From NCBI GenBank assembly GCA_963971425.1, contig OZ020517.1, forward strand, positions 17,450,904 to 17,514,903: a stretch of DNA of 64,000 bases. The letters are read 5' to 3'. The first letter of the stretch is position 1. Every line of letters starts with the position of its first letter. The notes beneath the pieces are model-generated. The model was not told where the DNA came from. It did no database searches and saw only the letters and a program-made list of their open reading frames with translations. This DNA comes from Bryoerythrophyllum caledonicum (lineage: Eukaryota; Streptophyta; Bryopsida; Pottiales; Pottiaceae). This document shows, in pieces, positions 25,796-63,202 of the stretch. A program made the translations under genes and the position numbers.

Positions 25796-25838
25796 TTATC
25801 AATATTGGGGAAATTTTTTGTAAGTTTTTCTAGGTTAA

Positions 25839-26614
25839 TTACGAGATCATGTTTTTTGAGGTATTTGTCCAAGAATCGTATGGGGCCTTTATCGGGGGTT
25901 TCGTCCATAGACGGCGATTCATATCTATGAAAGTAATATGGGGTGGCATAGGCGTGCTCGTATGGGTGTTAGGCATTCTTGTGGGTTTTTCCTTTCCTTC
26001 CTTTGCTAGTTTGTCGGCTTGCTCATTGTCGGCGATATTAGCATGAGCTCGGACTTTATGGAGTGTAGTGACTTGTGTGCGATTTGGGAGCATTACAACC
26101 ACAGATGTGAGGATAGTTTGGTCCGGGTGGCTGTTGTGTAAATTGGGGTGTTTTTTTGTGTATTAAGGAGACATAATGCATTTATGCAATCTGTAAAAAT
26201 GTAAGCTGGTTTATTTGGGTATTGGGTAGTGATTATCTTAAGGGTTTTGTGTATAGCCATCAGTTGGGCTCTTAGAATATTTTGGAGTCTATGTAGTCTT
26301 TTGCCTAATTTAATTTGTTTGGTTGGGTTGTATACCCCATAACCGGCTTTTTCCCGGTGCCAATGTTTCGGACTTACTTCGGTTGGTTCTTTAAAGGAGC
26401 CGTTGGTGTAATAGCTGAAGTTGGGGTCAAATTTAAGGTCGGTATTAATTTGGTAGTTGGGGAGTGGGAGGCTTAATTCGGTAATTGGTGGTGCGGAAAT
26501 GTTTGTGTGGAAGGTCTTAGACCATTTTTTGGTACGGTTTACAAGGATTGGAATAGGTGAGGGTGGGGCAATTGCGGTGTATACCTTGTTGATGTTTAGA
26601 TTTTTTGCTATCAA
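25839..26614 (-). pseudogene. RNase H domain of the minus retrotransposon
   Basis: Two overlapping frames. Visible are YYTNGSFKEPTEVS, LRAQLMAIHKTL, AYIFTDCINALCLL and VRAHANIADNEQADKLAKEG, matching the four RNase H motifs in order. The first Asp is Asn (NGS), the Glu is Gln, and the third Asp (FTD) and the final NE.AD motif are kept. The frame shifts near 26095. Confidence 0.65.
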
Positions 26615-26634
26615 AGTGAGATGAGGGAGGTTTT

Positions 26635-27967
26635 CTAGTGTACCAATCTCTCGAGTTTGGTGATGTATACATAGGATACGTAGGGTGCTGGTTCAAGACG
26701 GGGTGTTTGTATTTGCGGTGGTATAGTGGGTTCTTTGTAAGTCATAGAGTCCGCTTCAAATAGTACTATGATGTGGGAGTCCGAGAATGGGCCTAAGTGT
26801 GGGTTAGAGTTGTAGTACCAATTAGTGTTGGGAGTGATAATAATGGTGATGTTGTGGTTGGGATCATTGTTTGCCGCTAGGCGTGTCCAATGTGTTGCTT
26901 GGTGCGTTTCTTCTTCATTGTGAGGGTGTGCAAGGCCTATTCCGCTCCACCTATAGTCAAAAGCTTTTCCAAGAGAACCAAAATTTTTATCACTTTCAAA
27001 TGGAGAGTAGAATTTTGAAATTTTTGTGGAGCATGTAATAGGGGATGAGAAGTATGAATGTTTGATATTCAAGGATGTAATAAGGTAGTCTAAGATAGGA
27101 TCGGGTAATGTGTAATGTGCATTTCTAAAGGGGTCATTTTTGGGTATACGATATTTATATCTTTGGTATAGCCAAACAATTTCGGTTTCAAATGTTTGGG
27201 GTATTGGTTCAATGTTAATGGAGGTTTGTAGTGCCTTGTGGTATTGGTTCCACAACCATTGTAGTCTAGCGAGTGGTATGGTTATTAGGTGTCTACCATT
27301 ACCTTTGTATATGTGGGCATTATCTTGTTGTATTTTGATTGCATTTTTTTGTGCAAGGATGTCAGTTTCGGAATTGCATTCGGTTGTAAAGATGTTGAGG
27401 AGGGGGATAATAAGGGGTGGGGTGACAAATCTTCTATCTCGAAGTTGTGCTTGAGGGTGGTGATTGTATGATATTCAGGTAATAATTGTTTTGAGTTCTA
27501 AAGTAGTAATGTGTGAAGATTTCGGTGTTATGTAGGGAAGCGTTTGGGTTGTGCCAAGGGAAAAGATTTCTCTGCGGGAGCCATTTGATGTAGGTGGTGT
27601 TATTGTGGGGCCAATGGCATAGGTATGACATATATTGTTTGCTTATGTTGTTGGAGTCAATGTACTTTCTATGTTTGTGCGCGGTAATGTTGTTTATAGG
27701 GTGCATGGAAGGATTTTTTAATATATGTGGTGGAGGGGCATATGGTCGTGAGTGTGGCGGGTTTGGAGGATTTAATAGGAGGTTGATGTTGGGATGGATG
27801 TCATTGTGACCAATGATGTACGGATCTTTAAGTGTGTAAGGTGGGGTGTGAGTGGTGCAAGGGTTGGGGCATATGGGGAGGCATGGAGGATGACAAAATA
27901 ATTGTTTAGCAATATTTAGTGCACTTTTTATTAATTTGTAGAATTTTTTGTAGCTCTTGTTGTCCAT
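26635..27967 (-). pseudogene. RT-RNase H connection region of the minus retrotransposon
   Basis: Two long frames, 27967-27434 (Pro/His/Asn-rich, with YMSYLCHWPHNNTTYIKWLP) and 27255-26635 (VWLYQRYKYRIPKNDPFRN, YRWSGIGLAHPHNEEETHQA). The second is colinear with 956-1650 of the + copy. No domain was recognised. Confidence 0.55.
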
Positions 27968-28792
27968 AAGGTGTGTTCCATTTGATAGTGTAATTTGTTT
28001 TAGATCGGTAATGTTTGCGGATTTTTTTTTTGTAGGAGTTTAGCGGATAATTGTCAGTCAAGTCTAGGGAGGTTATGTACTTCATTTGCCCAACTTTGTT
28101 CAAGCGGCGCGGGGCCTAGTAGGAAATCTTCTAGTGTGATTTTTGAAATGTTTGGCCTTCTGTTTTGAGTAGAAGAAGTGTGCGGGTAATGGGAGACCAA
28201 AGGCAATTAGATTTTTTAAGTCTTTGGAGGTATTGTGCACCTCCATAAATGGCGAGGATGTGCCAAAGGAGTCCACTGTAAATTAGTCCTAGTCGTCCCT
28301 TGTCGTTAAGTGCATTTCGGAGTTGTTCTCCAATGCAATGTAGATAGGCATTTTTACGGGAAAAAGCTTCTAGCCCGAATAGTTCGTGGGGGATTTGTGT
28401 TGTGACATTGGGCGTATAATTAGGGAGTCCGCATACTTTCTTTTGTATGGCTATGATTTTTTTTATCAAGTTTGTTCATGGCGGGCATGGAATAAGGGAC
28501 CACATAGAAACTATATGAGATACCCGGATGTATTACGGTATCAATCATTTTATTTTTTGTTGCAATGTGGCCGGACATAGTGTAAGTTCATTGCATTGTT
28601 TAATAAGTTTTGTAGTAGTAGCGTGAATTTGAATTTTCCATTTTAACGATGGGACTAGATTTATTCCAAGGTATATGTAGGGTTGGTTTTGATTGAGAAG
28701 TGGAATTGGTTGGTTACGATAGTGGATATTTCTCGCTTGGATGAGGGCTTTGAAGGCGGTCGGATTTATTTTGGATTTGTTTGGGCATCCAA

Positions 28793-29638
28793 TTACGGCA
28801 CATTTTTGGATCCCTTGAGTTCCATCCCGGTCCATAGACAAAATTTGTCTATTTTGTCTAATTGAGTTTGGAGTGATTTAAGGCGTCCAGAGATGGCGGC
28901 TAGATGGTCGGCATATGCGGCTAAGTTTACGGTGACTTTTGAGGTGCCAAAGGTATAGCCATTATTACCTCTTTGAAGCCATCTCAGTAGAGGTTCTAGA
29001 AAAATAATGAAGAGGTATGGGCTCAATGTATCGCCTTGGATGGTACCACGTTGAATGGAGATAGGGCGTGTTTTACCAAAGAATTCTCCAATGTATGTAG
29101 TGGTAGATTGGGAGTATATATTGCCAACCAGTGTGACTGTGTCTTCCGGGTATCCAAGATCGCTCATAATGGCTAGCAATCGAGGATGGCCAATGGAACC
29201 AAACGCGTTTTTGAAGTCAATGTAGAGTATGTAAATGTCTTTATTAGTGAATTTTGCATCCTCAAGAGCAGCAATGAGGGTTTGAAGTTGTTGTGTGGTA
29301 CTTCTCTCGGCTCTAAACCCTTCTTGGCTTTCGTGTAATATTTGGTGTTTTTCCCGGTAGGCCGATAATATTGATGTTAGTGTGCTAGTGTACAATTTGT
29401 AAATGGTGTTAGCTAAGGCAATAGGTCGGTGGTTAGGTAGCACAGATGGGTTGCCTTTTTTGTATAATAAGATTGTTAAACTTGTTTTCCAAGATGCGGG
29501 AATTGATTTTTGTTTGTAGCAATGAAGGAAAAATAATGATAGAAGGTCATGGAATCTTGGGGGCATGTTTTTTAGAATTGAGTTAGGTATATGGTCCGGG
29601 CCGGGGGCTTTGTTGGTTCCCAAATTTTTTAGGCACAT
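28793..29638 (-). pseudogene. Reverse transcriptase domain
   Basis: An open frame of 281 codons. It has the LINE RT order: NKAPGPDHIPNSILKNMP, SWKTSLTILLYKKG, RPIALANTIYKL, GFRAERSTTQQLQTL, YIDFKNAFGSIGHPRL (motif A), RGTIQGDTLSPYLFIIFLEP (motif B) and AAYADHLAA (motif C). Motif C should read YADD; the second catalytic Asp is His, so the enzyme is inactive. Translation breaks shortly after SKNVP. Confidence 0.9.
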
Positions 29639-38176: not shown

Positions 38177-38580
38177 ATTGAGAGTTACACGTGTCCTCCG
38201 GACACAACAATTTTTTGTGTTGACTCCCCATCTCGTCCCGGCCCCCATCCCGTCCCCGTCCCCGTCCCTATCCCCGCCCCATCCTTTTATCCAAAACCCT
38301 AACTTTTAGCTTTTCATTTTATCCAAAATCCTAACTTTTAGCTTTTCATTTTATCCAAAATCCTAACTTTTAGCTTTTCATTTTATCCAAAACCCTAACT
38401 TTTAGCTTTTAACTTTTAGCTTTTACTTTCGCATCACTTTTTCATCCCGTCCTTTTATCCAAAACCCTAACTTTTAGCTTTTCATCAAAAACCGTTTCTT
38501 CATCCAAAAGTGTATTTTCATCTACGCATCATTTCATCTACGGGTTCATTTATCATCTTGTATTCTTTTATAGATATAGA
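38177..38580 (-). mobile_element. Helitron H1, array unit 1 (404 bp)
   Basis: On the minus strand it starts TCTATATCTATAAAAGAATA at 38580 and ends at about 38177. The 3' end has the GTGTCC-GGA-GGACAC hairpin, but the terminal CTAG is mutated to CAAT (ATTG on +). It holds a 31-bp tandem (TTTATCCAAAACCCTAAC..) and a G-rich tract. Nearly identical to the solitary copy at 52719-53220. Its 5' end abuts the 3' end of unit 2. Confidence 0.75.
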
Positions 38581-39224
38581 CTAGTGGGGTACCCGTGTCC
38601 TCCGGACACAACATTTTTTTGTGTTGAGTCCCCACCTCCCCGTCCCCTAGCCCTTTTCCTCCAATCCATCGTCCCCCCGCCCCCTGCCCCCCTGCCCCCC
38701 GGTCCCAGTCCCCCGTCCCCATCCATGTCCCCATCCCCATCCCCACCCCATACATTTTTTGTTTTGGTGGTTTTTCTTCTCATGCTGACCTGACAATATT
38801 TGTTTTTTCCAACCTGACCCAGGTTAGGAATTACTGACCTCCAAGGTTTGAGATTAGGGTTTCAGGGGGTCGATGCTCTAGTTGGAGGTTTGGGGTTGAG
38901 TTTTTGGGGATTCCGGGTTACCATATTGTTGATGGGTGAGATGTGATTGCATTTACAAAGCAGGAGAAGGTGTTGGAGCTTACGCAACTCGTTGGCCTTG
39001 ATATTCGAGAGGACACCTTTCTGATTGTGAGTTCGTAGTAGATCTGGAATTCTTTTGTTGTGTCCGTTTCTCAGTTTCTGTGGTGTAGGTTTCGACATTG
39101 TATGATGATTTTGTGCCCTTTGTCACCAAAGATGATGGATACGAATGTTTCATTGTCCGCTTAACACATGTATTGTCTATTTAGCCATCATGTCTGTGAG
39201 ATTGCTTAGCTTACTTTCTTGCCT

Positions 39225-39414
39225 AGTGAAAACTTTAGGTTCAAAACACTATAAATGTAAAAGTCCATCACAGTGAAAACTTTAGGTTCAAAACACTATT
39301 AATGTAAAAGTCCATCACAGTGAAAACTTTAGGTTCAAAACACTATTAATGTAAAAGTCCATCACAGTGAAAACTTTAGGTTCAAAACACTATTAATGTA
39401 AAAGTCCATTACAG
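39225..39414. repeat. 47-bp tandem repeat, four units
   Basis: Four copies of TGAAAACTTTAGGTTCAAAA.. ending CCATCACAG, nearly identical (one A/T and one C/T variant), inside Helitron unit 2. Confidence 0.95.
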
Positions 39415-39641
39415 CTTTTCCATGTCCCGTTTTGATTGAGTTTTGAGGTCAAGTACCGGCTTTCCAAATATCTTTGAGATTCGTCAATATTTACCATGCA
39501 CGTGCATGTCTCTTCCACTTTGGCATAAAACAATTCTTTTGTCTCCTGAAAGCTTCCCAGTACATGGTGGAATCGTTGTACACAATTATCACCATTGGCC
39601 TCATCACAAAAGTTGACAAAAATACTCCAGCATTCAACACT

Positions 39642-39857
39642 TCATTGCCATTCCTCCACACCAAGAAAGCGTGTATTCAACAGCCCATGTTCAAGAAGCT
39701 TTTGCACAAATTCATGCCAACCTTCGGCCATCTTTTCATATGCTAGATGGCTTGGCAGTATAGGTGTCTTCTCTCGAGAGCATGGATGTAATAACCCTAA
39801 AGTCAGGCACCTGAAAAAACACACATCCATCAGACTGATTCTCTCATCCTCTTCCAT
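39642..39857 (-). pseudogene. Unidentified exon-like fragment in unit 2
   Basis: A 71-codon minus frame with LPSHLAYEKMAEGWHEFVQK and LLEHGLLNTRFLGVEEWQ, preceded by a TTTTTTTCAG acceptor-like site. Protein-like, in Helitron sense orientation. Family not recognised. Confidence 0.3.
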
Positions 39858-40157
39858 CCAACAAAAAGCATGTATCCAAAATCCTAAAAGCAGGTATTAA
39901 CACTTCCCAAGCACCTGGAAAAAAATCCATCCGACTAATCTCCTCTCCCTCTTCCAATCAAACGCATGGATGTAGCAACTCGATTCAGATACCTAAAAAA
40001 ATACACATTCATGAGACTAATTTCCTCTTCTTCTTTTATTCAATCAAGAGCGTGGAAATTACGGCCAGAACACTTTTCCAGGCACCTGAAAGAGTACGAT
40101 CATCGCACCAATTCTCTCGTTCATGATGCTCTACGGCACCGTGCAGGAGGCCAGATC

Positions 40158-40671
40158 TTAAATCCAATCCCGTTGTCGCCAACCTCCCCGCGAGGAATCT
40201 CGTTCAATCTGTAGCTGCTTCGCAACTTCTACAATCTCGCTGCTTGGCACCGTTAACTTCACATCACCAACTCCTGACTCCTCTATGATCAACGACTTAG
40301 AAAAATTATGGACACGCTGTAAGAAGTATTTGCCAGGCTCCTCGCCTTCTATCTTTGATTGGTAGACGGCGCTCACAAGAATCGTCACGCGGCCTGATGT
40401 TAGAGGAGCCATAAATGCACCAAATCTCTGCAACCAAACAGAAGCGAATCATATTCAGAAACAAAAGAATTGCTCATAAGTATCACATGGAAGGTCATTG
40501 AGCGTATCCATCAAAGGTCCGACCTAAGAGCGAATATCACATGTGAATATGAGCCTGTCTGAGAGACTAACCTGGTCAGGATCTTTGATTGCACTTTGGT
40601 ATTTTCCATCTGGAGTAACGTCTGCTACTGCGTTGAGCAGATTCTCGCGAGGGATTCTCACATTGTCAAAC
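40158..40671 (-). pseudogene. ACX3: Captured ACX3 (acyl-CoA oxidase) exons, fused to unknown sequence
   Basis: Exon 40572-40671 encodes RFDNVRIPRENLLNAVADVT..KDPDQ, flanked by TGTCAG and GTTAGT splice sites. After a 138-bp intron, exon 40350-40433 encodes RFGAFMAPLTSGRVTI..SAVYQSK. In plant medium-chain peroxisomal acyl-CoA oxidase (ACX3) these two pieces are contiguous at KDPDQ-RFGAF, so the intron is genuine and capture was from genomic DNA. After QSK the frame continues into IEGEEPGKYFLQRV..VPSSEIVEVAKQL (down to 40158), which is not ACX3 and is unidentified. Only about 65 residues of a roughly 670-residue enzyme are present. Confidence 0.85.
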
Positions 40672-41601
40672 CTGACATGAGATATGAAATCAAAACACGG
40701 ACCCACGTCGATCCATGTGACGTTTTCTTTAGAACTGATCATCATTTTTACAACATGATACGCAGCGAGAGTGGATTCAGCCTACACAACTCACCAAACA
40801 CGAAAACGCAAACTCGGAAACTACAATCAACCTCGAAATTGACATGCACCTGTGAAGAATCGAGTCTCCGTCACGCTCCGAGTGCAGTTGCAGCCTCACC
40901 CTGGCTGTCTTTCCAGCTCGTCTCCTCTACCACCTTGCAGCAGATCGTAGCATGTTTCAGCTCGTCCGAGCTCCACCTGCGACTCCGCCGATTCCCGTTT
41001 TCAAGCCCTAACCGCGACTTTCCATCGGCGCGTTCATCCATCCGACGTGTTTTTCATCCGACGCGTTCATCCAAAAGGATCACCCTTCGTCCAAGATTCT
41101 TTTATAATAAGAGAAGACTAGTGAGGTACCCTTGTCCTCCGGACACAACATTTTTTTGTGTTGAGCCCCCATCTCCCCGTCCCCTAGCCCTTTCCCTCCA
41201 ATCCATCGTTACCTCGTCCTTGTCCCCTTGTCCCTTGTCCCTTGTCCCTTGTCCCCCATCCCCATCCCCGTCCCGGTCCCCGTCCTTTTTTTTGGGTGGT
41301 TTTTCTTGTCATGCTGACCTGGCAATATTTATTTTTTCCAACCTGACCGAGGTTAGGAATTACTGACCTCCAAGGTTTGAGATTAGGGTTTCAGGGGTCG
41401 ATGCTCTAGTTGGAGGTTTGGGGTTGAGTTTTTGGGGATTTTGGGTTACCATATTACCACAAGGAGATTCACGCACCGGCATTGCAGCTGTGATCTATTT
41501 CATCTGATAATCCGAGACAGAAGGAAACTGGTAGATCCACATCAACAAACGCATCAGTTTCAGATTATCACAATGAACGCTAGACATGTGCAAGACTAAT
41601 T

Positions 41602-41790
41602 CTAGATTTTCCTTGTGAATGCACGACCTACATTCCACAACATGATAGTCCAGGTGACAGTTTTGGAGCAGGGCGGAGTGGTGAGAGAGCCTCGGTATCT
41701 TCCATACGTGGGCTGCAGCACTGGCATTTCAAACCCCGGGATGTTCAGGCTTGTGTAGGGGTTCTTATGTGTCGGCAGCTCATCCAGGAA
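41602..41790 (-). pseudogene. Captured alpha-carbonic anhydrase exon
   Basis: After an ACGACAG acceptor the frame reads FLDELPTHKNPYTSLNIPGF..YGRYRGSLTTPPCSKTVTWTIM. YRGSLTTPPC followed by VTW is the conserved C-terminal motif of alpha-carbonic anhydrases, where the Thr-Thr-Pro-Pro loop lines the active site. The frame then passes into unrelated LWNVGRAFTRKI and a stop. The zinc-binding His exons are absent, so there is no activity. Confidence 0.85.
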
Positions 41791-42060
41791 CTGTCGTAAA
41801 ACACAATGGATCAGAGCTTCAGAATTACACATCATCTGAAAACTCAGGCAAAGATACCAAGAGTTTTGACCTCCTTTCTCGGTCTTGAGTACCAAAATCA
41901 GCTCTAAATCAGTTTAAACCTCTTGTGCGTTGTGTAGATATCCTCCACCTTTGTTGACAGCTTATGAATCTGCGACGTCACCACAGTATTAAGCGGGTAG
42001 TAGGGCAATATTGGCGGACTATGAAGGTAGTATCACCTGGGTATTGCACAGGTATCTCAC

Positions 42061-42231
42061 CTTCTTGGAAGGGACGAAGTGTGAGCTTTCGACTTCTTTC
42101 ATGTAGATTGGTGCGATTGCCCAGCCGGTGATGGCGTCGTACTTGTTGGTGATTTTCGCGAAGGCGGTGATGTTCACGGAGCGGTAGCTGGAGAGCAGAG
42201 TGAGGCTTCGGTGGAAATCCGCAAACGTATC
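42061..42231 (-). pseudogene. Captured SPX-domain exon (PHO1-like)
   Basis: The frame reads DTFADFHRSLTLLSSYRSVN ITAFAKITNKYDAITG..YMKEVESSHFVPSKK and ends at a GTGAGA donor. The order LL.SY.S.N..AF.KI.KK.D..T then Y...V..SHF..S.K is the C-terminal part of the SPX domain of PHO1-type phosphate exporters, which bind inositol pyrophosphates. Its upstream edge is fused directly to the E2 exon at 42231. Only this one exon was recognised. Confidence 0.8.
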
Positions 42232-42613
42232 AACTCCAGCAACGTCTCGCCGACCTTTACGATGTCCCCCGGGTTGAACCGAATCTGCGAGACCTGGCCC
42301 TTGTAGCGGCTTGTGATCACCACGGAAGTTTTGTCGCTCTGGCCTCGCACACGGACGCAAACTCCTCCACCAAATCACCCTGCACATCAAAACGTCGCGA
42401 GACTCCAAAACTCATAATTCCACGTCAAAAAACTCGCGTGACTTCTCTCACAACGTTCTCCCGGTTGAAAAATACCTCTTCCACGAACCACCGGATGAGC
42501 TCGCAATCCGCAATTCCTTCGCCCATCTGCGCCAGCGGAATCTCCACAATCCCGCCCGTGACCTCCACGTCCGGCATCGAGCTAAACCACCTCGCCCTCT
42601 CAATCTGAAACCA
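42232..42613 (-). pseudogene. BCE2: Captured branched-chain 2-oxoacid dehydrogenase E2 exons
   Basis: Exon 42476-42613 encodes WFQIERARWFSSMPDVEV..GGIVEIPLAQMGEGIADCEL IRWFVEE with a GTATTT donor. Exon 42232-42379 encodes GDLVEEFASVCE.. and, after a 1-nt deletion, TSVVITSRYKGQVSQIRFNP GDIVKVGETLLEL. This is the N-terminal lipoyl-domain part of mitochondrial dihydrolipoyl transacylase (BCKDH E2). The deletion lies just after SVCE and removes the segment holding the lipoyl Lys motif from frame. The 96-bp intron is kept. The catalytic domain is absent. Confidence 0.85.
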
Positions 42614-43319
42614 CTGCACAACGTGAGCAACAGCGCCTGTCAGAAAGTTGACCGGCGGCAAGAGCGAGGGAAAAACACTACCACTGCTGCTCCGCCCCGC
42701 CATAGCCATAGCTGATCCACAACGATACACTCGCTGAAGCTTCCTCAATTGCTAAGGCTGATATCCAACACAACCCAAACTGCGCGGAATCGCTTCATGA
42801 GAACCGCTTGCTGCAACTCGCAATGCTCCTGCGAGAATCCGCCTCGTCCTCATCGCTGCAAACCTGCAATAAATCCATCAATCTAAACTCTTCAAACACG
42901 AAAACGCAAACTCGGAAACTACAATCAACCTCGAAATTGACATGCACATGTGAAGAATCAAGTCTCCGTCACGCTCCGAGTGCAGTTGCAGCCTCACCCT
43001 GGCTGTCTTTCCAGCTTCACCCTAGCTGTCTTTCCAGCTTGTCTCCTCTACCACCTTGCAGCTGATCTCACCGCACCCTGGCTGTCTTCCCAGCTCGTCT
43101 CCTCTACCACCTTCAGAGAGCGAGACGTCGCAAACCCGACTTTTCATCCATTCGACTTTTTATCGGCGCGTTCATCCATCCGACGTATTTTACATCCGAC
43201 GTGTTCTTCATCCAAGATTCTTTTATAATAAGAGACTAGAGTGTTACCCGTGTCCTCCGGACACAACATTTTTGTGTTGAGTCCCCACCTCCCCGTCCCC
43301 TAGCCCTTTCCCTCCAATC

Positions 43320-43525
43320 CATCGTCCCTCCCATCCCTCGTCCCCGTCCCCGTCCCCCGTCCCCCGTCCCCCGTCCCCCGTCCCCGTCCTCCGTCCTCCG
43401 TCCCCCGTCCCCCGTCCCCGTCCCCCGTCCCCGTCCCCCGTCCCCGTCCCCTATCCCCGTCCTCGTCCTCGTCCCCATCCCCATCCCCGTCCCCCATCCC
43501 CATCCCCCGTCCCCCGTCCCCGTTG
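43320..43525. repeat. (CCCCGT)n minisatellite in Helitron unit 4
   Basis: About 30 units of CCCCGT / CCCCCGT / CCTCGT. Shorter arrays occupy the same relative place in most H1 units. The minus (Helitron sense) strand is (GGGGAC)n and could form G-quadruplexes. Repetitive Gly/Asp/Thr frames here are artefacts. Confidence 0.95.
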
Positions 43526-43736
43526 TCCTGATGCAAATAAATACAGTATGTAAAAAAATAATATAGATGCAAAAAGTGTGGTCGTAGAGTGACCTACAGT
43601 TTAATTCAATGTGGGAACAATTGGAGCTTGTTAGCCTAGCTTGGATGTACTACATCTGTCACTCTAGCTTAGGTGTAGGTAGGTGGCTAGTTGGCTGCTT
43701 ATTTTCCTGCTCTCACTAGCAAGTGCCAAGCCGCAG

Positions 43737-43835
43737 CCGCCCGAACAGTTCAACGAGCTCAATGAGACTCGAACTCGGAATCAGTCGGCGGATAACAAAC
43801 GGGCTCTAACAGCCAACCAAGTCTGCAACTTGGCG
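43737..43835 (-). other. tRNA-like (possible SINE head) sequence
   Basis: On the minus strand TTGGTTGGCTGTTAGAGC resembles a D-arm/A box, and about 30 nt later GAGTTCGAGTCTC resembles a T-arm/B box. The anticodon stem and acceptor stem do not pair well, so this is not a functional tRNA. A tRNA-derived SINE fragment is possible. Confidence 0.3.
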
Positions 43836-44123
43836 ATTATCATCGAGCCTACAATAGTTTTATACTGCTTCAGATAAGTCGTTTGTTTCTTAATCTGGCT
43901 TTACTGTCGACCTTCTTTTAGATGGAAAGGCATCTATGGCTACTTAAATTTGCTTAACCATTTACTATTAAAGAAATGTCATTGAGTTAATGTTAGGGAA
44001 GGCAAGCTTCTTGATGAAGTTATCGAAAAACATATAAATGCTAGATGGTTGCCGTGCCTTATGTATTACTTCAGGTCATTATTAGTTTGGATTGTTTCTT
44101 CTTAGTTTTTATAGGTTGATAGT

Positions 44124-44555
44124 ATGGCTTCTCAAGACCCTGATGATTGGGAGTTTCCTTTAGCTCACTCACCGGATGATCTAATTCAACTTTCTCAACC
44201 ATCGACATCAAGGCGGCGTGAGCGAGAGGAAGCAGGGCCTTCTGAGCGTCGTGTTCAACCACGTACCGCTTTTGATCCTCAACAAGTTCTTTTGACAAGT
44301 TTAAGAAGTTTACAACCGGAGGCAAGAACTTTAGTAATCGTCTTGGAGGTTGGAGATGTGCTTATCGAAGGCCATCAAGTGGTGTTTGAAGGGTGTTTTC
44401 AAAACACTAACGAAGGTCAAATGATAACCCGCTTGTCCAATGACCTTGGTCACCATCTTTGGCTTCAAGGCCCGCTCAGACACTTGGGTAGTGAAAGGCG
44501 AGCAAGTTACATTGCTGCTATTCTTTGTGAGATTCTTGACTTTTTACATGTGTAA
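44124..44555 (+). CDS. Hypothetical 143-aa protein inside Helitron unit 4
   Basis: A complete open frame starting MASQDPDDWEFPLAHSPDD, with an Arg/Glu-rich middle (SRRREREEAGPSERR) and a hydrophobic C-terminal half (LVIVLEVGDVLIEGHQVVFE). It opposes Helitron sense. No family recognised and no RNA evidence. It could be cargo, part of a nested element or chance. Confidence 0.3.
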   Translation: MASQDPDDWEFPLAHSPDDLIQLSQPSTSRRREREEAGPSERRVQPRTAFDPQQVLLTSLRSLQPEARTLVIVLEVGDVLIEGHQVVFEGCFQNTNEGQMITRLSNDLGHHLWLQGPLRHLGSERRASYIAAILCEILDFLHV

Positions 44556-45960
44556 TCCATCTAGGGGCTGAAGTTGAGATAATTTATTGTTATTTCTCAT
44601 TATTTATTTGTGGTTAGTTGTTGTTGAAGAAACCCGGTCTTTAGATTGATGACCAGGTAGTTAGTGTTTAAAAATACAAAGAATAGAAGGGATAGAGGGA
44701 TGATAAGAGTTGATAAGGGGGAGAATTTGAGCAACCAATGTGGGGTTTAAGATGCCCATGTGGCCTTTGAATGGGCTGAGGTTAGTTGTGATTGGCTCAT
44801 TTTCCCGTTTTGGGGGTTGAGTTCTTCCTTACCAAGCAGGGGTTGGACTGCGGGGCTCTCTTTGGTTGTTTTTTTTGTAGTTTGTTTTGGATTTTGAGTA
44901 TGTTGTAGCCCTTGTTGTTAGCTCTCTATGAAGCTATCACTCGGTCTTAGAGCTAAAAGTATGAGTGAACGGCGCCTTGTTGAACACAAGGGGGTCTGCT
45001 GCCCCATGTTTTCATGAGCAGTAGGTTTGAAGCCTTGTAGCGAGTTTTACAAAGTATATCTAAATGACATCTTTGATGAGTGTTTGTACACTGTAAATAG
45101 CTTTCCAAAGAGCTATCTTATGCTCTATTTTGAGCTTTTGTGAAGTCATAGCACTAGTTTGAAAGAAGAGGGGTCAGCTGATTTGAATTTTTGTAAGAAG
45201 TAACTTTGATTGCACATAGCGGCTGGCCAGATGAGTTTCTGGAAGTGAAATTTGGTGTGTTTGTGGTATATTTTAGTGGCTTTTCAAGTAGCTATAGCAC
45301 GTCTCATTTTGAGTTTGTATGAAACCGTAGTGGTATTTTGAATTAGAAGGTTAATCAAGAGTTTAAAAGAGAGTTTGAGTTCGGTTTAATACTTAATGAG
45401 AGGTTAGATAAATGATTTCAAAGGGAGTAAGGGTATATAGGAGAAGGGTATGAAGTGGTTAGGGTATGTAAGGGTAAGGGTATGTGGGATTGAGGTTAAT
45501 TAGGGAATTAATTATCTTAATCAAGGTATATTGTGTTAAGTAAGATTAATTAGTCTAATTGTAATCAATTAGCTTAACTAAAATTAAGTGGATTAATCAA
45601 GGTTAATCATTTTAGTTAAATATAATTATCTTAACTATTAATTAATTATTATTAAGTGGAATTAGTTAATTTAATCAGAGTTTGATTAAGGCTTGATTTA
45701 GGTTAAGGATAATTGATGTTTTTAGTTAAGTTTTTGAGAGACAATTTCTACAAGACATCTGCATCATGTCCTATTATATGTACATCGAGTTTTATTATAC
45801 AAGTTGAAGATCGGAGGCCTTTATGATATGGTGAATGAGGACTTATAAGTTTTTATGGACTTGGACACAAATCATATGTTCTATATTCTCCCTTTCCCTC
45901 TCTAAACTAAGTGCAGCCAAGAACCCTGAGTTTTCCTGAAACAAAGACTCTCTACACGAC
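44556..45960. other. Unit 4 interior, no gene recognised
   Basis: AT-rich. 45420-45720 contains many TTAATTA/TTAATCAAG variants, a low-complexity stretch. No domain-bearing frame. Confidence 0.5.
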
Positions 45961-46232
45961 ACCGTCCCCCGTCCCCGTCCCCATCCCCGTCCTCCATCCC
46001 CGTCCCCCGTCCCATGTCACCGTCCCCGTCCCCGCCCCATCCTTTTATCCAAAATCCTAACTTTTAGCTTTTCATTTTATCCAAAACCCTAACTTTTAGC
46101 TTTTCATTTTATCCTAAATCCTAACTTTTAGCTTTTCATCCAAAAATATTTTTTCATCCAAAAGAATCGTTCATCCATCGACGTGTTCATCCATTCGACG
46201 CATTGTTCATCCTAAATTCTTTTATTTTATAA

Positions 46233-46728
46233 CTAGTGGAGTACCCATGTACTCCGGATACAACATTTATTTGTGTTGAGTCCCCACCTCCCCGTCTCCT
46301 AGCCCTTTCCCTCCAATCCATCGTCCCCCCGTCCTCGTTCCCGTCCCCGTCCCTGTCCCCGTCCCCATCCCCGTCCCCATCCCCGTCCCCCATCCCCGTC
46401 CTCGTCCCTGTCCCCGTCCCCATCCCCGTCCCCATCCCCGTCCCCCATCCCCGTCCTCCGTCCCCGTCCCCCGTCCCCGCCCCCTCCTTTTATCCAAGAC
46501 CCTAACTTTTAGCTTTTCATTTTATCTAAAACCCTAACTTTTAGCTTTTCATCCAAAAATTGATTTTTCATCCGTCCCCGTCCCCGTCCCTGTCCCATCC
46601 TTTTATCCAAAACCCTAACTTTTAGCTTTTCATCCAAAAGCGTTTTTTCATCCAAAAGGATCGTTCATCCAACGACGTGTTCATCTATTTGACGCATTGT
46701 TCATCCTAAATTCTTTTATTATATAGGA
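46233..46728 (-). mobile_element. Helitron H1, array unit 5 (496 bp)
   Basis: The 3' end has CTAG at 46233-46236; its hairpin is weakened (GTACTCCGGATAC). The 5' end TCCTATATAATAAAAGAATT is at 46728. It contains two blocks of CCCCGT and two of the TTTATCCAAAACCCTAAC repeat. No gene cargo. Confidence 0.85.
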
Positions 46729-47204
46729 CTAGTGGGGTACCCGTGTCCTTTGGACACTTTTCTTGTTGGATAATTTTTGTTGGATGAATTTATTTACTGG
46801 GAACGGACGGATCGACATCAAGCTTAACATATTGTATGATTGTTAGTACCACGGCAAAGACAATCATTAATATCTAGGTTTGCAAGGTACAATTGAGGTT
46901 AATGGACGATTATACATACATTCACATAATTTACTCTTGATGCACAAAAAATGTATTAAATTGAAGCAAAATAAACTTTTTAAAATAGAAGTACCACACC
47001 ATACATGTTGACACAATATAAGACCTTTTTTTATACATGTAGTAGGTGAAATAATGATATGAATTTGAAACACCAGGTTTCATTGAGTTGGGTTCAATAC
47101 AAATACAAAATTCTAACACTATTGTATACACCAAAACCCACATCGAGTTCATATCCACAAACCTGCAGCCAGCAACAGCAACCTTCACGTTAGTCCATCT
47201 CTAG

Positions 47205-47302
47205 AATATTGAGGGAGAAGAAACATCCGACAGCTTCGCAAACTGCTCGTTCAAATGATTTCTTTTCAACCTCTCCCGACCGGCTTCCTGCAGCTTTCTA
47301 GT
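47205..47302 (-). pseudogene. Captured bHLH exon
   Basis: The frame reads KLQEAGRERLKRNHLNEQFA KLSDV. The pattern R-E-R/K-L-x-R-x-x-L-N-x-x-F-x-x-L is the basic region and first helix of a plant bHLH factor, closest in memory to the bHLH121/IVc group (KAGREKLRRE.LNE.F.EL). The frame stops soon after; helix 2 is absent, so it could not dimerise. Confidence 0.65.
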
Positions 47303-47545
47303 AGGCTAAAACATTACCCAAAAACATTACCGTATTTTGATAATTTCTATTGAATCAAAATACATATTGTCAACTGAAAGTATCATTTATGACCCGAAAC
47401 CTATCACCACACAGAGAAACAACTTTTTTTATTCTTGAATATGTGGGTGCATGCTTATCGTCAACAACTGCCCCCGATTTTCCCATACAATTCGGGGGCA
47501 TTCATGTAGCTGGAATGCACCCTAAGAGTACAATAATAACATCTT

Positions 47546-47596
47546 CCCGTTAAGCACTCTTAATGGTGCAAAAACTCGTTAAGAGTGCTTAACGGG
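47546..47596. repeat. Perfect 18-bp hairpin
   Basis: CCCGTTAAGCACTCTTAA (47546-47563) and its exact complement (47579-47596) with a 15-nt loop. It lies within a longer inverted pair: TCGTCAACAACTGCCCCCGA near 47459 and TCGGGGGAAATTGTTGACGA near 47611. Confidence 0.9.
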
Positions 47597-47633
47597 GAAA
47601 GAATTCTTTATCGGGGGAAATTGTTGACGACAG

Positions 47634-47733
47634 GTACAGACCCCGCCCAAGTGCTTGCCGGGAAATGAAGCGCACTTGGGCTACTGCCCTCGTGCGCTTC
47701 ATTTCCCGGCAAGGACTCGGGTGGGGTCTGTAC
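47634..47733. repeat. 42-bp hairpin, miRNA-precursor-like
   Basis: Arms 47634-47675 and 47692-47733 pair over 42 bp with three mismatches and a 16-nt loop. The inner 22 bp (TTGCCGGGAAATGAAGCGCA..) pair perfectly. Size and shape are compatible with a small-RNA precursor, but also with a foldback insertion. It lies right next to the G-patch exon. Confidence 0.8.
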
Positions 47734-47744
47734 CCCTTACTTAA

Positions 47745-47932
47745 GGGCCTTCCTCTGACTTCGCCTCTCTTCAGAATTTAGTACCACCTTCTTCAAATCT
47801 GCCCCTATGCCCCGCCTGTCCTGTTTCATGTGGGTCTCCACTGGATCCAACCTGCCCTGCTCTGTGGCACCAAGGCCTGTGCCTTCCTTCCACCCCGATT
47901 TCTTGAGCAACTCCACCGATTCATCCAGAGAA
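47745..47932 (-). pseudogene. Captured G-patch exon
   Basis: After a TTTAG acceptor at 47933 the frame reads SLDESVELLKKSGWKEGTGL GATEQGRLDPVETHMKQDRR GIGADLKKVVL. G-W-x-E-G-x-G-L-G and the trailing GIGAD are the G-patch signature, which in RNA-processing proteins binds DEAH helicases. About 55 residues, one exon. A TTAAGTAAGG donor-like site follows. Confidence 0.8.
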
Positions 47933-48818
47933 CTAAATCAATCCATGATCAAGCATCACACACCATACAGACACATCTACATGCATATTCCCTACTGAAT
48001 GGACACCACCTCTACTGAAAGATCAACCTGGCTTCAATGATTGCAACAATAAGAAACCAAAAGCACATGTAATCATCTCAAAGTCAACACTCTGCTGGAC
48101 ATGTTGAAAAAGAAAATCCAATTATATTCCTGATAGAATTACTACAGAAGGGAGTGACTCAGCTAACCCTAATCTCAAAAAATAATCTCACTACGGGTCA
48201 TGTCAAAGTTAAAAACCAATAAAACTCCTCATTACATACCTCATGAAAATTATACTATAGTTATAAGATTTCAAAGCAAATTACTACAAAAGAGTAGAGC
48301 TCAGCTAATCCTAATCTGAAAAATTTCTTAGTTATACTACTACAAACGGGAACACCTCATCAAACCCTAGCATGAAAAACCATCTCACCGCAGCCAGGGT
48401 GTGCGATTATACTGCAAGTACCTTCTGGTTTTAGCTTCGGTAGCATATCCTGTTTAGTGGAAAGGGATTGTCCCCGGATAATGTTGGTGTGGCGTCTCTT
48501 CCCGTGGAAGATTGTGGATGCTTGTTGGAAGAGACTGAAGAATAGTTCATAGACAAAAGGTGTAAACACAGACAAAGAAAAGGATCATCAACAGCGTTCA
48601 ATTTCACATAATCAGTGATTCCTTGCACATCATGTCATTTGTTTCAATCCATGTGCACTTTAGTTGCAGAAATGTAATTAAAGTATCATCATTTCTCCAA
48701 TTAAAGTATCATCATTAGCTAATACATACCAATTAGCTAATACATACCTGTGAAGGAGCATCCAAACCCTAATTGACACGAATCTGTCAGGCATTGAGAG
48801 AAATTCCAGACCTCACAT

Positions 48819-49274
48819 CGGCAGCTTCATCTTCTGGCGCAGCTTCTCCACTTCCAAGTATGCCGTGCTATATGGCAGATACTCCTGCATGTGCTCCTAC
48901 GCGAGCTCGCAGAGCCCATCTGCAAGCTTGGGAATGGCCATGATCTCGTCATTGGTGAGTATCCTGACGAAGCGCGCGGGATTCCCGGCCCAGAGCTCGC
49001 CCACTGGGACGCGGCGCTCGGGCGGCAACACAGACCCGGACCCGAGCATGGAGTTCATCTCCACAAGGCTGCCCTCCATCAACACGCACCTCTGTCTGGC
49101 GACCGCCTCGTCCTCCACCGTGCACGACCGCAGCGTGCTGAAGCTCCCGATGGTGCAGTACTTCCCGATGAGCGTCTCGGCCGACAGGCCAGTGGGCGCC
49201 GTGCTCGCCGCGTGCAACACGCACTTGTCCCCAACGCTGGAGGAAAATCCCAGCGAAACTGCGACCTGCGACAT
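48819..49274 (-). pseudogene. Captured gamma-carbonic anhydrase-like (complex I) fragment
   Basis: The frame from 49274 gives VGDKCVLHAAS, GKYCTIGSFSTLRSCTVEDE, VLMEGSLVEMNSMLGSGSVL PPERRVPVGELWAGNPARFV RILTNDEI. These hexapeptide repeats and the GELWAGNPARFVR motif are those of plant gamma-CA-like subunits of mitochondrial complex I. A TAG interrupts at about 48900, after which EHMQEYLPYSTAYLEVEKLR QKMKLPM-stop continues the natural C-terminus. So a C-terminal fragment of roughly 150 codons with one premature stop. Confidence 0.85.
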
Positions 49275-49375
49275 GTTTCATCCAAGTTGCGGTTTATCAT
49301 CGGCGCGCCCATTTTTCATCCACGTATTCATCCAAAAGGATCGCCCTTCATCCTGTATTCTTTTATAGATATAGA

Positions 49376-49823
49376 CTAGTGGGATACCCGTGTCCTCCGG
49401 ACACAACATTTTTTTGTGTTGAGTCCCGACCTCCCAGTCTCCTTGCCCTTTCCCTCGAATCCATCGTCCCCCCGTCTCCGTCCCCGCCCCAGTCCCCGCC
49501 CCCGTCCCCATTCCCGTCCCCGTCCCCGTCCCCGTCCCCATCCCCATCCCCATCCCCATCCCCATCCCCATCCCCACCTCGTCCTTTTATCCAAAATCCA
49601 AACTTTAAGTTTTTCATTTTATTCAAAATCCTAACTTTTAGCTTTTTATTTTATACAAACCCTAACTTTTATCCCGTCTTTGTATCCAAAACCCTAACTT
49701 TTAGCTTTTCATTTAATCCAAAACCCTAATTTTTAGCTTTTCATCCAGAAGCGTTTTTTCATCCAAAAGGATCGTTCATCCATTTGACGCATTGTTCATC
49801 CTAAATTCTTTTATTATATAGGA
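49376..49823 (-). mobile_element. Helitron H1, array unit 7 (448 bp)
   Basis: The 3' end has CTAG at 49376-49379 with intact hairpin. The 5' end TCCTATATAATAAAAGAATT is at 49823. It contains the CCCCGT/CCCCAT block and three to four CCAAAACCCTAA-type repeats. No cargo. Confidence 0.9.
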
Positions 49824-50129
49824 CTAGAGTGTTACCGCTGTCCTCCGGACGCAACATTTTTTTGTGTTGAGTCCCCACCTCCCCGTCCCCTAGCCCTTTC
49901 CCACCAATCCATCGTCCCCCCCGTCCTTGTCCCCTTGTCCCCTGTCCCCATCCCCCATCCCCATCCCCATCCCCGTCTCCGTCCCGTTCTTTTATCCAAA
50001 ACCCTAACTTTTAGCTTTTCATCCAAAAGCATTTTTCATCCCCGCGTTCATCCATTCGGTGCTCGTTTTTCATCGACGTGTTCATCCAAAAGGATCGTTT
50101 GTCATCCTGTATTTTTTTATAGATATAGA
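49824..50129 (-). mobile_element. Helitron H1, array unit 8 (306 bp)
   Basis: The 3' end has CTAG at 49824-49827 (GTAACACTCTAG type) with a slightly altered stem. The 5' end TCTATATCTATAAAAAAATA is at 50129, followed by host T at 50130. The shortest unit, essentially two ends plus one C-rich and one CCCTAA block. It closes the array. Confidence 0.9.
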
Positions 50130-52718: not shown

Positions 52719-53220
52719 CTAGAGAGTTACCCGTGTCCTCCGGACACAACAATTTTTTGTGTTGACTCCCCATCTCGTCCCGGCCCCCATCCCGTCCCCG
52801 TCCCCATCCCTGTCCCCCGTCCCCGTCCCCGCCTCCGTCCCTATCCCCGCCCTGTCCTCGTCCCCGCCCCCGTCCCTATCCCCGCCCTGTCTTTTTATCC
52901 AAAACCCTAACTTTTAGCTTTTCATTTTATCCAAAATCCTAACTTTTAGCTTTTCATTTTATCCAAAATCCTAACTTTTAGCTTTTCATTTTATCCAAAA
53001 CCCTAACTTTTAGCTTTTAACTTTTAGCTTTTACTTTCGCATCACTTTTTCATCCCGTCCTTTTATCCAAAACCCTAACTTTTAGCTTTTCATTTTATCC
53101 AAAACCCTAACTTTTAGCTTTTCATCAAAAACCGTTTTTTCATCCAAAAGTGTGTTTTCATCTACGCATCATTACATCTACGGGTTCATTTATCATCCTG
53201 TATTCTTTTATAGATATAGA
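52719..53220 (-). mobile_element. Solitary Helitron H1 (502 bp)
   Basis: The 3' end CTAG (52719-52722) is preceded by host A at 52718; the 5' end TCTATATCTATAAAAGAATA at 53220 is followed by host T at 53221. Removing it joins TTCTACA and TAAAACCAGAGATCTTC, which matches uninterrupted T1 copies (TTCCACATTAAACTTAGAGATC near 410-435). That is direct empty-site evidence for precise A^T insertion. Nearly identical to array unit 1. Confidence 0.95.
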
Positions 53221-57113: not shown

Positions 57114-59080
57114 ATGGCCAAAGAACTTAAAAGTATTGACCTTGAATCTCAACACAATGATAAATTTCCTCTACTAAAATATCCGTCATCTTCAAGTAAA
57201 TATGAAGAAATTGTCAATACACAATCTACAACAAATGCTTCTTCCTCCTCTTCTTCAAGGATACCAAATGTTTTTCTTTCAAGCAATTCTAATGACATAC
57301 CAAGTACACAAAATGAAGTGAATTTTTTAGGTTTGTTGATAAATTAAAGTTTTAAAATATGTTTGATAATATTACATATAATCATTTTGATAAAAAAACT
57401 ACATTGAAAATATAAATATATTGAATGGAAATGCCATGATTTCAGATATATTAAATGGAATGAAATTGATAACTAAAGTACAATTCATATTATCATATGT
57501 TAGGACCATGTTGCAATATATTGACAACAAAAGAAACTCCATCCACAAACAATCAAAGTGCTCCATCTTTAGAGATAGAGCCTTCATCAGATGCATTGAC
57601 TTCATCCTCAAGACCGTGGACTTTCAATAGCAACCAACCTAATATGAGACAAAGAGCACATCCTTTTAATACAGGAATATGGATATCTTTTGAACTTATA
57701 ATTACACTTGGACAAATCATAGCTTCAATTGTTGTACTTTCATCATCAAATCTTGATGATTTACAATCTCGTAAAAGTATTTGGATAGTAGGTTATACAA
57801 CGGCTTGTTTAGCAACTTTGCCACTTTTATATTGGCGCTATAAATATGGTCATATATTATTAAGGAATCAAGAGGTTTTAGCCCCTCTACAAACCACTCC
57901 ATCAACTTTAACTCCAACTATTACATCAGTTGTAGTAGGATCCAATTCCAATGTTTCTTTCAATCCAAATACTCAAGTTGGCACATTACAAAGTCAAGGA
58001 GTTAATAATTCAATTTCTCAAGAGAATAGGTGTTTACTGTTTGCTTTACAATTTCATCAATATTAAAATTGTGTTTTACCCATGAATAAATTATAGTCTT
58101 AAACAAATTCAAAATCTCATCTTCACATGGTTAATTTGTTACATCCTTCAAATTCCATTAAATTGAAACTAAAAAACATATCACATTAATGTAGTTTATA
58201 TTTGTATTGAATCAAAATCAACAAAGAATCATGTTTTATATAGGTTTCGCAAATTTATTGAAAAGTTCAAAGTTGGACTAGATTGTTTTTTTGCAATATG
58301 GTTTATAATTGGTAATGTGTGGGTTTTTGGTCTTGGTACATCTTATGAAGAACCAAAGTTATATAGGTACATGCTCCTCCATTAGTAATCTACAATAATC
58401 AACTATATATAAGAATAAACTTATCAAAAATATAATTAATAAATATAATATTTACATATTTTTTCAACATAATTTGATATACACATACTTGTTCTTCAAT
58501 TCAATAAAAAATTTGGTCACAATATCTTTGACATTTTTGTGACAAACGTGCTATGTATAGGTTGTGCATTGTATTTCTCTCCCTTAGTTGCATTGCTTAT
58601 GCAATGCCACTTGTTTTATGTACAACAATATGTTGTTGTTTACCATGTATAGTAGCACTTCTTGGGTTTCAAGAAGAACGGCGGCATCAAAGTAGGGGTG
58701 CCTCTTCTGAACTTATTGCAGCGTTGCCAACTTACAATTTCAAAGCGCAAAGTTCCCCCACGTCTAGTAACATAACGATAACAAAAGAAGACAATGGATT
58801 GGTGAATCAAGGAGGTTTTGTAGGTGAAGGGACTAAGAATAGAAGACTTGTCACAGCGGATGATGCTCTGTGTTGCATTTGTCTTGGAAAATACAAAGAC
58901 AAAGTGGACTTAAAAGAGTTGCCATGCTCACATCATTTTCATGTTGGTTGTGTAGATAAATGGCTCAAAATCAATGCCTCGTGTCCGCTTTGTAAACACA
59001 ATATGATTAGTGGTACTAGTGGATCACGCGAATCCAATACTTCCTCGCGAAGTGATGCCACTGTAAACTTATCATGTTGA
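57114..59080 (+). CDS. RIE1-type membrane RING-H2 protein, AT-rich copy
   Basis: Exons 57114-57330, 57534-58029, 58244-58366 and 58561-59080 join to 1356 nt (451 aa) with all phases kept. Intron positions and phases equal those of the gene at 61219-63202. Four hydrophobic segments are visible: ISFELIITLGQIIASIVVLS, IVGYTTACLATLPLLYW, GLDCFFAIWFIIGNVWVFG and LCIVFLSLSCIAYAMPLVLC. The RING-H2 is at about 383-424 (CCICLGKYKD..PCSHHFHVGCVDKWL..CPLCK). This is the family of Arabidopsis At1g12760/At4g11680/RIE1, membrane E3 ubiquitin ligases. Coding sequence is strikingly AT-rich with short AT-rich introns, unlike its neighbour. No stop or frameshift, so it is probably functional; expression is not known. 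Confidence 0.85.
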
Positions 59081-61218: not shown

Positions 61219-63202
61219 TCAACTCGCTGCACCGGATCCCACCGCCGCTCCCTCCTGCACCTCGCTGCTCCCACCCGCCGCCTCCCCTGCACCCCCACTC
61301 CCTCCTACGCTCGCGCCGCCGCCCACCTCATGCTTGCACAGCGGGCATGACGCATTGATCTTCAGCCACTTGTCCACGCACTCCACATGGAAATGGTGCG
61401 TGCAAGGCAGTTCCCGCAACTCCGCGCCATCCTCGTACTTCCCCAGACAGATGCAACACACCGCATCCTCTGCCGACACCTGCCTCTCCTTCTCCGTTCC
61501 CGCCGCCACCACCCCGCCCTCCCCGACGCTCTCCGAGTCCGAATCACTCCCGTCCTTGCTCCCTTTCGGGCTCGCTGAACCCTTCGCCTTGAACTTGTAC
61601 GTAGGCAGCGCAGTGATCGCTTCCGCCGACGCCCCTCGGGTCTGGCTCGGGTCCTCCCGGAACCCCAGCAGCGCGATGATGCACGGCAGGCAGCAGCATA
61701 TCGTCGCACATAGGATGAACGGCATGGCATACCCGATGCAGCTGAACGTCAGGAACACGATGCACAATCTGCCCGTACCACACCACAACTCATGTCAGCG
61801 CAACAAAACTGCAACCTCCACCAACACACCAACAACGCACGCGCAACTCCACAATCCTCGTCACTCCACCCAAACCATGTGTCCCCAGGATAAGGATCTG
61901 CACCTGTACAAGTTCGGGGCCTCGCTTGATGATGTGTGCCCGCCAAATACCCACACGTTGCCCACCACAAACCAGATCGCGAAGAAACAGTCCAGCGCTA
62001 TCTTGAACCTCTCCACGATCACCCCAATCCTGCACACGCCACCAAATTCATCACTTCACGCTCCCGTGCTCCAGACTCCCGTACTAACTGAACCTTCTCG
62101 TCAGGCCAATCCATCAGAAAATCCATAATCCATCAAGCTTTTCTAACCCGAGTGCCTCTGACCACCTCTCAACTGAACCTGGATGCCAACCCGAACGTAG
62201 TTCCAATCGGGAAAAGTTGCGTACAAGCAGAATGCCCAACCTCCGCAACATGTGCCTTCACATTCAGATTCATACTAAAACAAGAGGATGAGCACAATAC
62301 CGGTCATCGACCAGTGACTCCTGTCCGTCGAACCCTGAATGCCGAGCAATATTTGAGATCCCATTGCGTGTTGTCGACCTATAAGACGTCGCCGCAGATC
62401 CGCTCGTGGGAGTCGTCGGAGACGACGCAGCTTGTGGAAGCGCATTCTGCTCCCTCGAACGTACGTACCTATGCGTGTACCGCCAGTACAGCAGCGGCAG
62501 GGTGGCCAGGCACCCGGCTGCATACCCGATCACCCATGCCTGCAGCGGCGCCTGTGGATGCTCGTCTTGGGACAGCGACAGCACGACGATCGACGCAATG
62601 ATCTGGCTGATCGTGATCGTCAGCTCGATCGTGATCCACAGACCCGAATTCAGAGGGCTCGTCCTCTGTCGTGCGCTGCGCCCGTGCGAGTTCGACGATC
62701 TGCCCGTCGGAGTCGATGCAGCCGAAGGAAAAGAAGGTTGCCCTCTCAACGACGAGTTCGCAGACTGGCTCCTCGACAACGTCTCCCCTGCCGCCCAACA
62801 CATCACACAACCACCCTGCCTTCATCAACCATCTGCACTGCGCTACCAGATCCCTCACGCCCACCGTACGCATCGGAAACTCAATCTCCAATCTCATCGC
62901 CCAAACCAGACCACACCGCTCCAATTCCTACACATGCAAAATGCCACTACCACACGGCCATACGCAACCACACACCTCGCCATCGCATCGCCCGATTCCG
63001 TACCTGTGGATGCACCTTCTTGTGCTACCGACGGAGAACTCGAGCTTCGAAAGAGCGTGCCACCGTCCACGCTCGCAGCATCCGTATCAGGTCCGATATT
63101 CACAACATGCTCCTGCCGGACGGCTCCTTGATGATCCATTAGCAACGGAGACGTGTCGCTGGTCTGAGCTTCAAGATCCAAGTCCTCACACCGATCGGCC
63201 AT
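61219..63202 (-). CDS. RIE1-type membrane RING-H2 E3 ubiquitin ligase
   Basis: Minus-strand exons 63202-63004, 62787-62301, 62029-61904 and 61768-61219 join to 1362 nt (453 aa), with GT..AG introns and phases preserved (ACA-G/GG; CG/G; AG/A). Starts MADRCEDLDLEAQTSDTSPL. Membrane segments lie at about 116-138, 150-168, 236-255 and 272-300. Then come ALPTYKFKAKGS, the conserved GEGGVVAAGTEKERQVS, the RING-H2 at 375-415 (CCICLGKYED..PCTHHFHVECVDKWL..CPLCK) and a Gly/Ala-rich tail. All eight zinc ligands are present. It is the family of At1g12760/RIE1, which transfer ubiquitin at endomembranes. GC-rich. It converges on the AT-rich paralogue 2.1 kb away. Confidence 0.9.

Follow-up and report, generated by a model that had tools for sequence, protein, structure and literature searches.

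Eight Helitrons joined end to end

The window analysed here is a stretch of 64,000 nucleotides from the moss Bryoerythrophyllum caledonicum (assembly GCA_963971425.1, contig OZ020517.1, positions 17,450,904 to 17,514,903), which contains an array of Helitrons, rolling-circle jumping genes some of them with parts of ordinary plant genes on board. Read on the minus strand from 50129 to 38178, eight non-autonomous units follow one another in the order U8 to U1, in one orientation and with zero bases between them, and they differ in length, termini and cargo. The eight-unit gapless array is real. An earlier note on this DNA had described gapless Helitrons of a single orientation with mixed interiors, a description that our analysis supports, and all seven inter-unit boundaries lie, to the base, exactly where it had placed them when read on the minus strand. 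The same note had CTAG directly against TC at every joint, which holds for six of the seven; the joint at 46232/46233 reads CTAG|TT. The idea that CTAG does not abut TC, suggested by the plus strand (CTAG followed by other bases), was ruled out, the elements lying on the minus strand. By itself CTAG|TC proves little, because the hexamer GACTAG, found 15 times in the window, is also frequent in 20 windows simulated with a first-order Markov model (mean 6.95). The combined joint motif, ATTCTTTTA followed after 2 to 18 bases by GACTAG, occurred 0 times in the 20 simulated windows.

The array had been given as 38177 to 50129, and all of its inner boundaries stand, whereas the outermost 3′ end, near 38177, lacks CTAG. 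Alignment of U1 to a sister copy that ends in CTAG|T (52719-53220) places this end at CAA|T, so that U1 is better written 38178-38580. The whole array occupies one A|T target, with a host A (...CTCTTA) before U8 and a host T (TAAAAATT...) after U1; the inner joints are G|T by necessity, and A|T is present only at the outer flanks. The sister of U1 is a solo family member outside the array (52719..53220, minus strand), bounded as host A|TC...CTAG|T host.

Units and their contents

Each unit, all on the minus strand, has an AT-rich 5′ end such as TCTATATCTATAAAAGAAT and a hairpin near the 3′ end that precedes CTAG. A canonical 5′ TC occurs in seven of the eight units (U4 starts with TT), as does a canonical 3′ CTRR in the form of CTAG (U1 has CAA). 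The hairpin is typically GTGTCC-NNN-GGACAC, followed by 10 bases and CTAG; it was predicted in eight of nine folded sequences (stem of 5-6 bp, one bulged), with z-scores of only -0.5 to -3.1, and was missing from U5. In U6 the stem is kept and the loop differs. A|T flanks without target duplication occur at the outer flanks of the array and around the solo copy, and a host A precedes a copy of U2 on contig C8 and a copy of U3 on contig C1.

Four units are simple short elements: the 5′-most unit U8 (49824..50129, 306 bp), which has the host A before its TC, U7 (49376..49823, 448 bp), U5 (46233..46728, 496 bp), with its mutated hairpin, and the 3′-most unit U1 (38178..38580, 403 bp), non-autonomous, in which TC is intact and CTAG has decayed to CAA before the host T. 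Gene fragments lie on the same strand as the Helitrons in three others. U2 (38581..41117) carries a fragment named by eye as acyl-CoA-oxidase-like, for which there was no such Pfam match. U3 (41118..43235) carries three fragments, matching a lipoyl domain (PF00364, E = 4.9e-6), SPX (PF03105, E = 8.1e-11) and eukaryotic-type carbonic anhydrase (PF00194, E = 1.9e-10). U6 (46729..49375) carries two, a G-patch fragment (PF01585, E = 9.6e-16) and a hexapeptide-repeat fragment (E = 1.1e-5; 25.4 bits, under the cut-off of 27) that by eye is gamma-carbonic-anhydrase-like. Inverted repeats also lie within U6 at 47440-47740 (one 86% alike over 102 bases), possibly a foldback or MITE-like (miniature inverted-repeat transposable element) insert.

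The remaining unit, U4 (43236..46232), is a short Helitron split by a solo long terminal repeat (LTR). The unit sizes of 306 to 2997 bp given earlier are correct, as is the difference between interiors; however, 2,438 of the 2,997 bp of U4 belong to the LTR (43524..45961) and not to a Helitron, which leaves 559 bp. This segment has TG...CA ends and CCGT on both sides, the latter in a GTCC-rich repeat. Of 46 listed matches (self excluded; best 40 of 1798 candidates scored), 40 fall within this segment at 93-97% identity, 37 of these being full length. Same-strand pairs of matches 8.6 kb apart occur on contigs C11 and C12, the arrangement known from full-length LTR elements. In the 220 kb around the window it has one 67% match. 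Judged from its sequence, the U4 interior is thus a solo LTR inserted into a short Helitron; captured cargo was ruled out by the repeat copies and their same-strand pairs elsewhere. With recognisable gene fragments only in U2, U3 and U6, the array is less mixed in cargo than first claimed.

Gapless joints across the genome

Across the 437-Mb assembly we found 367 exact family 3′ ends and 130 exact gapless joints, and the reversed-pattern controls gave 0 for each. The terminal motifs are thus conserved in other genomic copies, a point on which the earlier note had been prepared to see its reading fail. The quotient 130/367 is no strict fraction, as the 3′-end pattern and the joint pattern are not nested, and 130 is a lower bound, because only four of the seven joints in the window match the exact pattern. 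Matched by coordinate on contig C1, 24 of the 82 exact 3′ ends are exact gapless joints. Random landing of 367 elements at A|T sites (7% of sites assumed to be A|T) would be expected to give ~0.004 joints. Gapless stacking is therefore a habit of this family and not an isolated oddity, given the 130 exact joints and the empty controls. In the 220 kb around the window the family ends have one weak 21-base match. Among the 100 listed of the 130 joints, chains on the same strand with steps below 7 kb comprise 58 single, 17 double and two quadruple cases, the last being the present array and C6:5705655-5715881.

An assembly artefact would be conceivable in that such repeats are hard to assemble. 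However, the window contains no N, the 100 listed joints are spread over eight contigs, and the joined units carry different cargo, all of which makes this explanation hardly credible.

Ends fetched from outside the window were also labelled by eye. In 24 of 49 the next element was joined at exactly 0 bases, and in only two at a distance, of 2 and 30 bases; this sample was partly picked for pairs and for A-type ends (see below), and the count excludes the ends within the window itself as well as one internal motif (L031 at 1417). For ends L049-L068, taken in order after the targeted picks, 6 of 20 were gapless. Three ends had a possible 5′ end 100-129 bases further on. Because the 24 joints sit at exactly 0 bases and only two neighbours at 2 and 30, we infer that resident termini serve as targets of the transposase.

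The family has two 3′-end types, with variants: type A, GGGTACCCCACTAG, and type B, GGGTAACACTCTAG. On contig C1, 16 of 35 type A ends and 8 of 47 type B ends are exact gapless joints (Fisher p = 0.007), a bias that is weaker in the 49 ends labelled by eye (p = 0.09). That type A might be a purely internal, non-terminating end was ruled out by several A ends directly before a host T, and that it might be the younger type by the mean pairwise differences (A 9.0%, B 7.7%). Among the array units, 5′ types a and c are each paired with both 3′ types, a pattern that points to exchange of ends within the family. Four B-type elements (L035, L055, L059 and L060) share the same 3′ flank (TAAGACGAT...), so that these elements were either carried within a larger repeat or inserted at one and the same site of such a repeat, as far as these flanks indicate.

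The Rep/helicase profile PF14214 has 152 matches in the genome (150 of 492 candidates scored). When the listed matches on contigs C1-C9 were compared with the listed family ends, the one nearby was a Helitron_like_N match at C1:32369046 on the plus strand, 5.6 kb before an A-type family 3′ end, a proximity estimated not to be beyond chance. This match is a possible decayed autonomous partner of the family.

Neighbours are unlike and units moved separately

To account for the array, the earlier note had offered rolling-circle production of concatemers beside repeated insertion. A concatemer, arising by run-on replication past the terminator or by insertion of a multimeric circle, predicts neighbours that are alike. 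Comparison of units for divergence, a check the earlier note had proposed, favours sequential insertion: across 12 pairs, the mean difference between the 3′ ends of adjoining units is 12.1% (median 7.8%), compared with 10.2% (median 8.5%) for all pairs, and the probability that random pairs are as alike or more is 0.79. In a subset of 10 of these 12 pairs the mean difference is 9.3%. Gapless neighbours are thus no more alike than random family members, which argues against a concatemer, as do the differing unit lengths, ends and cargo; successive units are not near-identical. Tandem CentHel arrays in rice are, at second hand, explained as rolling-circle concatemers. Circles with joined 3′-to-5′ ends are described as Helitron intermediates (Helraiser, PMC5876387), which also speaks for run-on. 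Copies of U3 and U2 exist apart, however, and U2 copies stand beside other partners. Taken together, we regard a concatemer as very improbable.

The separate copies bear this out. Sister copies of U2 lie on contig C8 and twice on C3, with 98-99% identity over ~1.74 kb and 86-97% over a further 374 searched bases closer to the 3′ end. All three begin at most 12 bases from U2's own 5′ end and are without U3. The C8 copy stands between a host A and another element; the C3 copy at C3:15996605-15998988 is preceded by the CTAG that ends another sequence and followed by a third element. Elements other than U1 follow two of the three copies, and the third is bordered by N on its 3′ side. A copy of U3 (93%; C1:45192083-45193991) has a host A on one side and a host T on the other and is joined to no family member. 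Because the U2 and U3 copies stand apart, with other neighbours or host DNA, these units moved separately and were then assembled here. For U6 no full-length second copy was found among 40 candidates scored of 1635; long segments at 81-96% occur elsewhere. An empty-site paralogue was ruled out, as no genome match covers the 445 bases of 3′ host flank adjoining the array. At two of the U2 copies, C3:12934343 (L073) and C3:15998988 (L071), the CTAG of an unlike sequence stands directly upstream, that of L073 with its own GC-rich hairpin, and these C3 copies may mark joints between different Helitron families.

Part of the array might instead have arrived ready-made, if joined pairs or blocks move together when a 3′ end is bypassed. 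A pair like U8|U7 occurs at C6:26057875-26058617 (82%), and a U6-type 3′ end with a U5-type 5′ end occurs at C14:9828828-9829398 (89% across the joint of U6 and U5). Both C3 copies of U2 have in common an upstream flank that ends in another CTAG. Among same-strand neighbouring ends within 5 kb on C1, the upstream member is of type A in 12 of 14 cases (35 of 82 overall), and nested and multi-terminus elements are described for maize and fungi. On the other hand, identity over the shared pairs lies within the single-unit range, the listing (best 40 of 1113 candidates scored) contains no close copy that extends across the joint of U3 and U2, and ends of types A and B both also occur directly before a host T. 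Such composite mobility is therefore unlikely, though it carries some weight.

Order and side of insertion

The array is probably the product of successive independent insertions by which eight members of one family were joined, each exactly at the terminus of a resident element. Only normal transposase steps would be needed: the enzyme would cut the resident terminus that it recognises, and the CTAG 3′-OH of one element would be linked to the 5′ TC of its partner, giving the same joint as in Helitron circles. In the likelier version, the cut would fall at the resident CTAG|T, the incoming TC would be joined to the resident CTAG, and the incoming CTAG to the host T. Stacking at the 3′ end would place the newest units at the 3′ end of the array, which is its left end on the plus strand.

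Identity to the nearest copy rises towards the 3′ end of the array, from ~75-86% for the longest matches of U8/U7 (short pieces reach 92%) through 93% for U3 to 98-99% for U2 and 97.8% for U1, the last based on 9 mismatches to the solo copy in 403 aligned bases, gaps apart. The gradient suggests that the 3′ units came last. In maize, PCR identified lines that carry the upstream but not the downstream member of a pair of adjacent Helitrons at r1, for which the simplest explanation is later insertion at the 3′ end of the upstream element (PMC2267711). Given sequential insertion, we lean towards 3′ stacking, with the order of insertion itself inferred.

Several points weigh against this order. 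Insertion at a 3′ end uses G|T, yet Helitrons prefer A|T, which is present at the resident 5′ end; the preference is marked in 49 de novo insertions of wheat Xuan1 (PMC13286980). Nearest-copy identity is only an upper bound on age, and short units rich in GGGGAC repeats diverge fast. The trend is drawn from U8/U7, U3, U2 and U1, with the U1 value taken from the window alone; the Helitron part of U4 yielded no usable nearest copy. U2 (99%) compared with U1 (97.8%) runs counter to the trend, and towards its 3′ end the C8 copy of U2 drops to 86% identity. The recurrence of similar pairs (82% for U8|U7 on C6 and 89% for U6|U5 on C14) means that joint movement is possible.

The opposite side of entry was the reading that we first favoured, before the nearest-copy identities demoted it to a rival. 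In 5′ stacking, a new element would land between a host A and the T of a resident TC, and U8 would be the newest unit. Such insertion always yields gapless arrays with G|T joints and a single host A and host T outside, and the host A before U8, the host T after U1, the decayed 3′ end of U1 and the flanks of the U2 copy on C8 (a host A and another element) all agree with it, as does the A|T preference of Helitrons. However, the nearest copies are most distant for U8/U7 and closest for U2 and U1, and the maize lines retaining only the left element would then need precise excision. We therefore regard 5′ stacking as somewhat doubtful, though a serious rival. Of the repeated insertion at an existing 3′ end put forward earlier, insertion at existing ends is thus upheld, whereas its side leans towards 3′ by the nearest copies and towards 5′ by the A|T rule.

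Other features of the window

Outside the array, minus-strand open reading frames at 25279-29638 have by eye the likeness of a LINE reverse transcriptase with RNase H. An inverted pair of mutually similar RING-finger genes, also identified by eye, lies at 57497-59080 (plus strand) and 61219-62806 (minus strand). An Rfam search at the gathering threshold and a tRNA search each returned 0 matches. Judged by eye, the genes in the window have the character of land-plant DNA.

Relation to known tandem Helitrons

Published cases of tandem Helitrons come from maize, bat, rice, Drosophila and fungi. Xiong et al. in 2016 reportedly described CentHel tandem arrays in rice centromeres, with hundreds of truncated copies attributed to rolling-circle amplification. 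These too are Helitron tandem arrays in a plant, as far as that account goes, but they consist of truncated copies, in contrast to the whole elements of mixed content described here, whose neighbours are not more alike. Pritham and Feschotte in 2007 are said to have found tandem Helitrons in the bat Myotis lucifugus and read them as tandem repeats; that case, like one in the fungus Metarhizium acridum, shares with the present array its head-to-tail copies. According to Yang and Bennetzen in 2009, maize Helitrons reportedly prefer inserting near or inside other Helitrons, an attraction shared by the present family, in which the position is exact to the base.

A close parallel is the maize r1 pair of 2008 (PMC2267711), in which a gapless CTAG|TC joins units with different gene fragments; the pair is read there as consecutive insertions, with both orders discussed. 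It amounts to two units in one case, compared with eight units here and 130 exact joints of one family. The M. acridum triple, for which 5′-end insertion or rolling circle are the causes offered (PMC5148889), likewise has fewer units than the present array. We found neither an array of eight different units nor a family with so high a proportion of base-exact joints in the open-licence literature by title and start of abstract, a search that gives only weak grounds for calling them absent. Tandems of two or three units are already known, and the present array is a longer, family-wide variant. The earlier view of eight mixed-cargo units as unusual thus holds for length, whereas the array is not isolated, with 130 joints in the genome, and fewer of its units carry cargo.

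The choice between run-on and end-targeted insertion as the origin of tandem Helitrons is a long-standing problem. A family that forms at least 130 exact joints in a single genome, many of them between units that can be told apart, allows both mechanism and order to be tested across accessions. We tentatively propose, as a possibility short of an even chance, that the family uses its own resident termini as a preferred, base-exact landing site, and that its arrays grow by single additions through 3′ (G|T) stacking, in defiance of the A|T rule, and act as nurseries where gene fragments are juxtaposed and ends exchanged. If true, such end-targeting would explain Helitron clustering, the side-by-side occurrence of fragments from different genes, and elements with several termini.

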